From Bacteroidales bacterium (GTDB taxonomy: Bacteria > Bacteroidota > Bacteroidia > Bacteroidales > Marinilabiliaceae), in contig JAKSLD010000022.1 in the NCBI GenBank assembly GCA_024401395.1, forward strand, positions 1 through 57,516: a stretch of 57,516 bases of DNA, in the 5' to 3' direction. This document shows positions 54,519-57,516 of this stretch, one piece after another (position 1 is the first letter of the stretch; each line of letters starts with the position of its first letter). The position numbers and the translations under genes are program-made. Below the pieces are notes generated by a model. That model did no database searches and was not told where the DNA came from. It saw nothing but the letters and a program-made list of their open reading frames with translations.

Positions 54519-55469
54519 ATGGACAGATATCTAGATCCCAAAGCCGACCTTACGTTCAAGAAGGTCTTTGGTGAGCATCCCGATTTGCTCATCAGTTTTC
54601 TCAATGCCATGCTGCCGCTAGAAGAAGGCGAGAGTGTGGTTGAGGTGGAATATCTGCCTACGGAACTTGTTCCAGAGAATCCACTCAAGAAGAACAGCAT
54701 AGTGGACGTACGCTGCAAGGACCAGAACGGCAGGCATTTCATAGTAGAGATGCAGATGATATGGACAGATGAGTTCAAGCAGAGGGTTCTCTTCAATGCA
54801 TCGAAGGCTTATGTGAAACAGCTAGACTCGTCGGAGAACTACAAGCTACTTCAGCCTGTGTATTCCATAAATCTTGTCAATGAAATATTTGAGGCCACGA
54901 TGCCCCATACGTTCTACCACCACTACAAGTTGGTTCACTCAGAAAGTTCCGACAAGGTGATAGACGGTCTTCAGCTTATCTTCATAGAGTTGCCCAAGTT
55001 TTTTCCCAAGACTATCAGTGAGAAGAAGATGCGAGTGTTGTGGCTCCGCTTTCTCACAGAGATAGACGAGAAGACCAGGAGAGTCTCTCCAGAGCTGACA
55101 GAAGACCAGCATATAAGCAAGGCGTTGACATTGGTGAAGGAGTCGGCCTTTGATGATGCACAGCTATTGGGCTATGAGAAGTTCTGGGATGTGGTACGTA
55201 CGGAGCGCACGCTAATAGAAGCGGCAGAGTTGAAGGGATTGAAGCAGGGAATGGAGAAAGGGATGGAGAAAGGAATGGAGCAGGGGATGAAGCAGGGGAT
55301 GAAGCAGGGGATGAAGCAGGGTATGGAGCAGGGACTAGCAGAGGGCCGAGCAGAAGGACGAGCAGAAGCAAATGTTGATACAGCAAGAAACCTTAAGTCG
55401 CTAGGTGTAGCGGTGGAGACGATATCGCAAGCTACGGGGCTTTCAGTAGGGGAGATTAATAAGTTGTGA
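54519..55469 (+). CDS. Rpn-family recombination-promoting nuclease / putative transposase (PD-(D/E)XK)
   Basis: 316 residues. Starts MDRYLDPKADLTFKKVFGEH, the Rpn/PDDEXK_2 opening, with the catalytic region NSIVDVRCKDQNGRHFIVEM (Asp ... Glu-x-Gln) at about residues 62-82. Family members cut DNA and raise RecA-independent recombination; they are often multicopy and associated with genome plasticity. The last 80 residues contain a coiled-coil run of GMEKG/GMKQG/AEGRA units encoded by near-identical 12-bp DNA repeats (about 55248-55365), then an HTH-like tail (LKSLGVAVETISQATGLS). Repeat number may vary. Two promoter boxes and a 10-bp repeat array precede it. Confidence 0.9.
   Translation: MDRYLDPKADLTFKKVFGEHPDLLISFLNAMLPLEEGESVVEVEYLPTELVPENPLKKNSIVDVRCKDQNGRHFIVEMQMIWTDEFKQRVLFNASKAYVKQLDSSENYKLLQPVYSINLVNEIFEATMPHTFYHHYKLVHSESSDKVIDGLQLIFIELPKFFPKTISEKKMRVLWLRFLTEIDEKTRRVSPELTEDQHISKALTLVKESAFDDAQLLGYEKFWDVVRTERTLIEAAELKGLKQGMEKGMEKGMEQGMKQGMKQGMKQGMEQGLAEGRAEGRAEANVDTARNLKSLGVAVETISQATGLSVGEINKL
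55248..55365 (+). repeat. 12-bp coding repeats in the Rpn gene
   Basis: Units such as GGGATGAAGCAG occur about ten times in succession, encoding the G-M-(K/E)-(Q/K) repeat and ending in AEGRA units. The number of units is likely to change by slippage without shifting the frame. Confidence 0.75.
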
Positions 55470-55642: not shown

Positions 55643-56155
55643 ATGAAACATCGTTTCTTAAGTATGCTGGCTATGCTTGCAATGAGTGTAGCGGCGATGG
55701 CTGATGAAGTACCGGGGGTGACCGTAGAGTATGTAGATGCGGGCACAGCCTCGTATGTTCAGGCCATAAGCGCCATAGGGCGCATAGAGTTCAATGAAGG
55801 GAATGCTGTCATTGTGTTCAAGGACGAAGCAGCCGGGACGGAGAACCTTGGAGCTATTTCTGCTATCAAGAAGATTTCTTTTGGTGGTGTGAGTGAAGAG
55901 GATATTAACAAGGGGGAAACACCTACAGGCATTGTGGAGACAGAACAAAGGGTGAGTGTGACGGCATATCCTAATCCTGTGGCAGACCATGTGCATATCA
56001 GTGGGCTTGCAGAGGGACAACAGGTGCGCCTGTTCACGACAGACGGCCGTCTGATGTTCGTCGGACAGCAGTCTGATATAGATATGTCGGGCATGGCTAA
56101 TGGTATATACCTTTTGCAGGTAGGTAAAGAGGTAATCAAGGTAGTCAAAAAATAA
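55643..56155 (+). CDS. Secreted protein with C-terminal T9SS type A sorting domain
   Basis: 170 residues. Signal peptide (FLSMLAMLAMSVAAMA). N-terminal region EYVDAGTASYVQAISAIGRI then KDEAAGTENLGAISAIKKIS, a repeated ISAI(G/K)-(R/K)I pattern common in Prevotella-type secreted proteins. After a short linker comes a typical Por/T9SS type A sorting domain: AYPNPVADHVHISGLAEGQQ, VRLFTTDGRLMFVGQQSDID and ANGIYLLQVGKEVIKVVKK. The domain directs export by the type IX secretion system and is usually removed at the surface. The protein has no other recognised domain. The gene is next to the FISUMP gene on the same strand, separated by two palindromic repeats. Confidence 0.82.
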   Translation: MKHRFLSMLAMLAMSVAAMADEVPGVTVEYVDAGTASYVQAISAIGRIEFNEGNAVIVFKDEAAGTENLGAISAIKKISFGGVSEEDINKGETPTGIVETEQRVSVTAYPNPVADHVHISGLAEGQQVRLFTTDGRLMFVGQQSDIDMSGMANGIYLLQVGKEVIKVVKK

Positions 56156-56171
56156 AAGACCAATCGGTGTA

Positions 56172-56245
56172 GAGACGGTGTGCACACCGTCTCATGCAAA
56201 ATGTGGTTGATACCAATGATTTACAAGACGGTGTGCACACCGTCT
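56172..56245 (+). repeat. Palindromic 55-bp repeat, two left copies
   Basis: Perfect palindromes at 56172-56193 (22 bases) and 56226-56245 (AGACGGTGTGCACACCGTCT), 54 bases apart, with the shared linker ATGTGGTTGATACCAATGAT. They lie in the spacer just upstream of the FISUMP gene. Confidence 0.9.
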
Positions 56246-56284
56246 CTACGGAAGAATGTAAAAATAATAAAACACGAAAATAAC

Positions 56285-57175
56285 ATGACGAGATTTTTTA
56301 TTTCGGCGCTAGCGCTCTTGGGTATGGGCGTTATGGCAACAGAGGCGAGCGCGCAGTTCAGTGTATATAAGGATGGCAAAGTGGTATTTACCATGCCAGA
56401 AACGCCAGACTATGTAGATTTTACATATAATAAGCCAACTACAGGAACTGAGAATGGTCATGATTGGGTTGATCTTGGACTGACAAGTCGTACACGTTGG
56501 GCAACATGCAACGTGGGTGCAGACGCTCCACAATCTGCTGGTGACTATTATCAGTGGGGCGAGACTGAGACGCACTACTCAGCAGGCGGCAATACAGATA
56601 CCCCAACATGGAAAGAAGGCTATTCGGCTGGCTACAACTGGAGTACATATAAGTGGTGCAATGGTTCGTATTATAGGCAGACCAAATACTGTACAGATGG
56701 TTCATATGGTACTGTTGACAACAAGAAAGAGCTTGAGGATGCTGATGATGTAGCTGTTCAGACGTGGGGAGGAGCGTGGAAGATGCCGACATACGAGCAA
56801 CAGACAGAGCTTCGCAATGAATGTTACTGGGTATGGACCAGTACCTATAATGGAGAAAACGTTAACGGGTATATAGTCTATAAGGCGAAGAAAGATGGTG
56901 ATAAGGGAGTAAAGGTATATTCAGGAAATACACCTTCATCTGATTATGATGTTGCTACGGATGTGCATATTTTTCTCCCTGCTGCGGGCCTCCGCTGGGA
57001 TGCGGTTCTCCGCAGCGTGGGCCACCTCGGCTACTACTGGTCGCGTTCGCTTAGCACGAGCAACTCCAGCTACGCGTACTACTTGTACTTCTACTCGGAC
57101 CTCGTGGATTGGTACTCCGGCGACCGCTACTTCGGGTTCTCGGTTCGCCCTGTCTGCCCTGGGGTTCAGGAATAA
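56285..57175 (+). CDS. FISUMP-domain secreted protein, candidate DGR target
   Basis: 296 residues from ATG 56285; earlier in-frame ATGs lie in the palindromic repeats and would put about 35 residues before the signal peptide (FFISALALLGMGVMATEASA). The body is a Fibrobacter succinogenes major paralogous (FISUMP) domain: VDLGLTSRTRWATCNVGADA, YYQWGETE, WKMPTYEQQTEL and a C-terminal FLPAAGLRWD ... YWSRS ... FGFSVRPVCP. This C-type-lectin-like fold is a known target of diversity-generating retroelements. From residue 231 (nucleotide 56975) GC rises sharply and most variable codons have the form NNC while fixed ones do not, the pattern left by A-specific mutagenesis of AAC codons. Surface recognition role is inferred. 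Confidence 0.85.
   Translation: MTRFFISALALLGMGVMATEASAQFSVYKDGKVVFTMPETPDYVDFTYNKPTTGTENGHDWVDLGLTSRTRWATCNVGADAPQSAGDYYQWGETETHYSAGGNTDTPTWKEGYSAGYNWSTYKWCNGSYYRQTKYCTDGSYGTVDNKKELEDADDVAVQTWGGAWKMPTYEQQTELRNECYWVWTSTYNGENVNGYIVYKAKKDGDKGVKVYSGNTPSSDYDVATDVHIFLPAAGLRWDAVLRSVGHLGYYWSRSLSTSNSSYAYYLYFYSDLVDWYSGDRYFGFSVRPVCPGVQE
56975..57160 (+). other. Candidate DGR variable region in the FISUMP gene
   Basis: Codons here fall in two classes. Ones expected at variable sites are TAC, TCC, GGC, GAC, CTC, CAC, TTC and AGC (all NNC), as AAC would become when only its A positions change. Ones between them are GCG, GTG, TGG, TCG, CTT, TTG, ACG and GGG, which lack mutable A or end in G/T. GC in 57001-57060 is about 65%, against about 40% in 56701-56760. 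The end is the conserved FGFSVRPV. No template repeat matching it is in the window. Confidence 0.65.
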
Positions 57176-57516
57176 CCATGTCACCCGTAGAGACGGTGTG
57201 TACACCGTCTTTTGTGAAATTTGGTTGATACCAATTGTTATAAGACGGTGTACACACCGTCTCTACGGGAGAATGTGGTTGATACCAATTGTTTACTAGA
57301 CGGTGTGCACACCGTCTCTACGGGAGAATGTGGTTGATGCCAATTGTTTATAAGACGGTGTACACACCGTCTCTACGGGAGAATGTGGTTGATACCAATG
57401 ATTTACAAGACGGTGTGCACACCGTCTCTACACGGGATTTTGGTTGATACCAATGGTTTATAAGACGGTGTGCACACCGTCTCTACGGGATGCTTGGATA
57501 ATTTTTGATTCGTCAA
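57176..57516 (+). repeat. Tandem array of six palindromic 55-bp repeats
   Basis: Palindrome cores start at 57191, 57243, 57298, 57353, 57408 and 57463, with spacing of 52 then 55 bases four times. Each core is AGACGGTGTGCACACCGTCT or a central G/A variant, followed by CTACGGGAGAATGTGGTTGA and a linker with the small inverted repeat TGGT-TGAT-ACCA. The same unit occurs twice on the other side of the FISUMP gene. The array may run past the window end. No gene lies in it. Confidence 0.9.

Follow-up and report, generated by a model that had tools for sequence, protein, structure and literature searches.

The 3' end of a gene close to the right end of the window is almost certainly a target, or variable region (VR), of a group of diversity-generating retroelements (DGRs) that is represented in the same genome by a cassette on contig C27. 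By sequence comparison, membership of this VR in a DGR is secure, and it is ordinary in itself. The window is the whole of contig C15 (57,516 bp) and comes from a genome assembly of 3.30 Mb in 47 contigs that is 97.9% complete. The target gene (56285..57175, + strand) encodes 296 aa from an ATG at 56285, in a frame that is open from a GTG at 56180, and the VR (56969..57169, + strand, 201 nt) forms its C-terminal end. Searched with 56975-57175, the genome gave, apart from the query itself, two strong matches, both on C27, and weaker matches on C46 and C10. The template repeat (TR) lies at C27 1568-1768 and has the same length of 201 nt as the VR. The two differ at 31 positions, and all 31 fall on the 54 TR adenines (binomial 2e-18, Fisher 4e-22); therefore, the pattern is not due to chance. 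The earlier note had read this gene end as a DGR target, had suggested a search for an AAC-bearing near-copy beside a DGR reverse transcriptase (RT), and had seen no RT in the window. The near-copy is present on C27, 28 nt before the RT gene, and RVT_1 matches over the cut-off occur in this genome only on C10 and C27, which are also the only contigs with the exact TR core motif.

The changes in the window VR are to T (14), G (11), and C (6); 19 lie at codon position 1 and 12 at position 2, with none at position 3. Of the 22 TR codons that read AAC, 21 are changed in the VR, against none of the 35 that contain no A, and no TR codon can turn into a stop through a change of its A. The VR contains 37 NNC codons, of which 22 stand at a TR AAC (21 changed and one still AAC). 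The proposal that the NNC codons are altered AAC codons was thus right in kind and too wide, as the other 15 are fixed, reading the same in the TR; two further changed codons (ACG>GCG and AAT>GTT) do not belong to the NNC class. Likewise, a VR had been placed at 56975-57160, where one is indeed present with limits at 56969-57169, and the GC-rich 3' end described from the sequence was borne out (GC 0.61 in 56969-57169, compared to 0.45 in the preceding part of the gene and 0.44 in the window).

Contig C27 starts inside a target paralogue, and carries in order the 3' part of this paralogue with its own VR, an accessory gene (C27 833-1390, 185 aa), the TR, the RT gene (C27 1797-2996, an open frame of 399 aa), and a GH95 gene. 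The best solved match of the RT is 8ub7 (2.7e-36, with the next at 1.7e-7), which we take to be the Bordetella phage BPP-1 DGR enzyme. Its motifs are YVDD and IGNLTSQ, the latter fitting the (I/V/L)GxxxSQ definition of DGR RTs (PMC3521204). Motifs and structural ranking together place the C27 RT in the DGR clade. Relatives of this RT in 103 phage records were all below 60% identity (37% for the first listed), and four viral contigs carry a relative at 51-52% identity.

A second genome of the same genus, a Bacteroidales MAG from horse faeces (G010), contains a complete cassette on its contig C33 (locus L041), with tail gene, target, accessory, TR, and RT. Its TR is identical to that of C27 (0/201 differences), and so is the TR-RT gap (0/28), while its VR differs from the C27 VR at 28 of 201 positions, 27 of which are TR adenines. 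The surrounding DNA shows 3 differences in the 250 bp before the VR, 1/163 between the VR and the accessory gene, 4/555 in the accessory gene, and 1/177 in the leader. The contrast between 28/201 in the VR and less than 1% in the other neighbouring DNA implies that the VR changes while the rest stays. Variation confined to A-sites, which had been proposed as a check between related genomes, was found in the window VR as well: 30 of 30 differences from the sister VR and 33 of 34 from the C27 VR lie at TR adenines. The C27 VR itself departs from the TR at 24 adenines and by one T>A, and a further VR of the C27 TR on G010:C11 has 22/22 mismatches at A over 188 nt. Over the four VRs of this TR in the two genomes, 101 of 102 mismatches are at A (31/31, 24/25, 24/24, and 22/22).

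The RT genes of C27 and the sister cassette show 9 differences in their first 960 nt and 84 in their last 237 nt, and the edge of the conserved block therefore lies inside the RT gene. The two loci (L013 on C27 and L041) come from two species of one genus and have different genes 3' of the cassette; the cassette is about 99% identical, against 79% for the GH3 genes, which suggests that it was transferred recently, with its edge in the RT gene. A search for an empty site in the sister genome by way of GH3 found the gene at 79% identity with other neighbours that differ, and no clean site.

On this evidence the bacterium can probably renew, over and over, the tip of an apparently exported protein. 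In the proposed mechanism, the TR with its leader would be transcribed, the RT would copy the TR with errors opposite adenines, and the cDNA would replace the VR through homology at the 3' end of the VR. Each of the 21 altered AAC codons would then place a new residue on the tip of the exported protein, and a stop codon would be impossible at these codons, because AAC can only become NNC.

It is possible, though short of probable, that C15 runs into C27 through an unassembled tandem copy, so that the window VR and the RT would be in cis, separated by a few kb. The first 55 bases of C27 are by eye identical to window 56541-56595, C46 has tandem units of tail gene plus target, and C15 ends right after a repeat array. 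Against a join, no read or contig connects C15 and C27, and the sister genome holds a VR of the same TR more than 17 kb inside a 44-kb contig with no RT match. Both contigs end in repeats, and a tandem join of C15 and C27 is as possible as a remote site. The sister VR in question, on G010:C11, lies some 17 kb in from the closer end of its contig, and RT matches in G010 at E <= 1e-20 are confined to C33. Its position deep in an RT-less contig makes it likely that this VR was written in trans. It sits inside an 817-aa frame (L099 2380-4833, minus strand) rather than at a C-terminus; after the VR come repeated CSVCGE-type units, and the frame runs on for hundreds of residues. A VR fragment on G010:C7 (L100 3923-4117) has no long open frame listed around it and looks like a decayed target.

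We consider it unlikely that the window VR is a fossil of past DGR writing, left by an element that no longer reaches the gene or no longer works. Orphans do exist, since VR-like stretches for which no template was found occur on C46 and in another genome, G001, and RTs with an internal stop occur in other genera (G029 and G034). The G001 stretch mismatches the C27 TR at 39 positions, 34 of which are TR adenines, and a search of that genome, which is 74% complete, gave no RT match. However, the C27 RT is open over 399 aa with its motifs present, and the 201-nt window VR has 0 non-A mismatches to the TR, where time would have added some. Moreover, apart from the VR and the RT tail, the cassette is less than 1% diverged between the two genomes, and the VRs differ throughout.

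Ordinary gene conversion among paralogues, in which mutagenic reverse transcription plays no part, is highly improbable. The paralogues are near-identical before the VR (4 to 7 differences in 250 bp between the window gene and those of C27 and the sister genome), and the edge of the sister cassette falls within the RT gene, so recombination acts here; conversion, however, offers no way to restrict changes to adenines of a copy that is non-coding, as seen in all four VRs. A plain GC-rich, codon-biased, lectin-like tail with no link to a DGR has next to no probability, as it is refuted by the C27 TR and kept no support once the TR was found.

For the DGR group to which the C27 cassette belongs, we judge a broader reading somewhat more probable than not. 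A large DGR group of gut Bacteroidales and viral contigs would have a three-helix RNA 5' of the TR in place of a long 3' spacer, and a MutS-like accessory in place of Avd. The RNA would be a built-in stop or docking site for the RT, usable to find the templates of remote targets. The stretch from the accessory stop codon to the TR was aligned for eight DGRs (C27, three other genomes, and four viral contigs) and has a common fold built from a 7-pair closing helix, a short and a long hairpin, and an A-rich joint. Changes on both sides occur in 18 of 22 pairs, and 87.5% of cells pair, compared to 68.9% after shuffling and no more than 46% in slid versions. The covariation score was 0.602 against 0.276, with 0 of 500 shuffles as high; the number of pair types was reached by 15 of 500 shuffles.

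A covariance model of this fold (R1) was run on 393 genomes of the order, drawn from a larger group, and gave four matches at E <= 0.001, namely the C27 leader itself, G397, G381, and G373. The G397 score equals that of L042, a member of the model, and G381 and G373 are new; in both, the leader lies between a MutS-like gene and an AAC-rich stretch 5' of a DGR RT. As a search probe, the leader thus yielded two new bacterial DGRs in 393 genomes with no use of protein sequence. On viral contigs, a short motif pattern gave at least 120 stretches, of which 80 loci were examined with R1 and 25 matched; as the pattern itself selects for the motif, these 25 loci are a biased sample. A related RT is present in 23 of the 25, and in the other two (L151 and L166) the sequence ends just after the match; among the 55 loci with no R1 match, one has a related RT, at 28% identity.

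Leaving out repeats of equal score, there were 30 distinct R1 matches, 8 of which had built the model. All 30 leaders are followed 3' by an AAC/AAT-rich stretch (raw counts of 13-25 codons per 260 nt; 7 in 115 nt in L166), and 29 have an RT 209-372 nt downstream; TR-VR pairs were verified for some of these loci. In the 30-row alignment, which is fitted to R1 and so leans towards the model, 86.5% of cells pair (98.6% in the closing helix and 55% in one inner helix), and 142 cells show two-sided change, compared to 50 in shuffles. A motif AGCA[CA][TC] at the TR 3' end is found for 23 of the 29 leaders in the range searched, against a shuffled rate of 12%, and the L143 copy lies inside the RT gene. 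R1 missed some related DGRs: at E <= 1, it has no match in C10, L043, L047, or L048; it matches L045 weakly in the right place (E 0.061), and L051 and L044 at chance level.

The leaders scanned against Rfam 15, among them those of C27, L048, and L143, gave no match above the gathering score. The C27-type leader matched no family at E <= 1, RT-7 (RF03028) included; scanned alone, the C27 leader gave only Zeta-pan (E 6.4), and its viral relative L143 gave nothing at E <= 10. RT-7, the nearest of the Rfam RT-n RNAs, is likewise a structured RNA beside an RT gene, and has a sub-threshold match in the L048 leader, which R1 misses (26.4 bits against a cut-off of 116.8, E 0.024). We found no earlier description of the leader in the literature searched, whose scope lay outside Wu 2018 and Weinberg 2017, or in Rfam where it was scanned, and the covarying RNA leader appears to be new here. 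This RNA would mark the 5' limit of the cDNA, hold the complex of RT and accessory, or both. We read it as a stop and/or dock because the TR-RT gap is only 28 nt and the structured part lies 5', where synthesis must end. To our knowledge, how the cDNA end of a DGR is set is known mainly from one phage, and the 5' RNA is a candidate for how this group sets it.

The accessory family resembles MutS domain I: four of five members match Pfam MutS_I (best 4e-4), and the C27 accessory itself scores 0.053. In a structural model of the sister accessory (pLDDT 81.7), the top Foldseek match is MutS over 51 residues at E 0.04, with none below 0.001. One of the five members matches bAvd, probably the 240-aa protein of L047 (L047 2461-3183), in which MutS-like and Avd-like parts look fused and whose second half by eye resembles the Avd-like protein of C10. 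No Avd ORF was seen in C27:1-6000, and PF05635 has no match on C27. Elsewhere in this genome, PF05635 matches exceed the cut-off on its contigs C11 and C30 and are weak on C7 and C10; an Avd partner acting in trans is therefore possible. A 2018 survey of DGRs by Wu and colleagues reportedly includes a class with a MutS-like (MSL) accessory, with which the present accessory shares its likeness to MutS domain I; here, by comparison, a covarying RNA leader was tested.

The C27 element is like the DGR of Bordetella phage BPP-1 in its TR/VR pair with A-only changes, a VR at the target C-terminus, and an RT with the SQ motif that is strongly alike 8ub7. In the BPP-1 prototype, as described in PMC12875486 and PMC8867640, Avd is present and a structured RNA lies 3' of the TR; the 3' spacer serves both to recruit the RT and to prime, and synthesis of the cDNA terminates at a motif 5' of the TR (PMC12875486). 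In contrast to BPP-1, the accessory here is MutS-like, the gap between TR and RT measures 28 nt, the structured RNA lies 5' of the TR, and there are several targets, also on other contigs. The less ordinary features would be the MutS-like accessory with no Avd gene seen nearby and the covarying RNA between accessory and TR. In Treponema denticola, as reported in PMC4891356, one template likewise serves several VRs that are scattered among paralogous genes, and targets remain in strains that have no core. That DGR differs from the present one in its HRDC accessory, where a MutS-like protein is found here, and in its phylum. According to PMC8144416, surveys of assembled contigs miss targets away from the RT. 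Taken by itself, the window VR is a further DGR target, and the genome is a clean case in which the template is identified by sequence.

The N-terminus of the window target is signal-peptide-like as judged by eye, its ATG start is common to the sister target (81% identity), and the protein seems to be exported. The FISUMP name given to it earlier found weak support. Among eight aligned proteins, the window's included, six match Lcl_C (best 2e-8) and three Fib_succ_major (best 6e-4), and the C27 paralogue matches Lcl_C at 7e-4, under the cut-off; the window protein, however, has no Pfam or NCBIfam match at E <= 1, PF09603 and PF07603 included. An AlphaFold model from the eight rows (mean pLDDT 48.8) was too poor to show a fold, and the target profile gave nothing in the PDB at E <= 1. 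Upstream lies a companion gene with a Por_Secre_tail domain (55643..56155, + strand, 170 aa), near copies of which precede both C46 genes and the sister target. A PDDEXK_2 family transposase-like gene (54519-55469) adjoins the target cassette, and its 95% match in the sister genome is on a different contig.

VR and TR part at 57170..57179 (+ strand), where the window reads GAATAACCAT against CACTTACCAT and holds the stop codon; their likeness past 57169 adds three non-A mismatches, giving 34 in 211 nt, 31 at A. This flank is a candidate IMH/IMH*-like difference; the IMH and hairpin criteria are those in PMC3240598. An inverted repeat at 57191..57210, 21 nt after the VR, is a candidate target hairpin with an 8-bp stem and a 4-nt loop; the loop is TGTA, not GRNA, and the hairpin is one copy among many of a repeat family. 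Stems of at least 8 bp occurred in 23 of 2000 random 50-nt window pieces. Other VRs are followed by stems of 6 bp (C27, with a 12-nt loop, and the sister genome) or 3 bp (C10 and one C46 gene), and with stems of 3-8 bp a post-VR hairpin as a feature common to these VRs was dropped after the background check. The repeats form a palindromic array at 57187..57512 with a spacing of about 55 nt up to the contig end, and two further copies precede the target gene (56166..56275). The palindrome AGACGGTGTGNACACCGTCT occurs at 8 places in window 56173-57482 (16 strand matches, none in shuffles), and also on C46, C25, C31, C24, C12, and C3.

The genome contains a second DGR on C10, with MutS-like (177 aa) and Avd-like (119 aa) proteins, a 264-aa target, a TR, and an RT; 25 of the 26 mismatches between its VR and TR are at A. 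In L043 (5682-9140), a target with a VR-like end lies directly 5' of an RT, with no separate template seen, and this locus may be a collapsed DGR. On C46, two tandem genes (L015 1267-2688 and 3736-5187) have two VR-like stretches each. No template for these four stretches was found in the same genome or among the matches listed in 15 genomes of the genus; since the assembly is 97.9% complete, the template may be missing from it rather than lost. Similar gene pairs occur in G005, G008, and G001, and several VRs per target frame are known, in 31 of 271 multi-VR DGRs as reported in PMC6642488.
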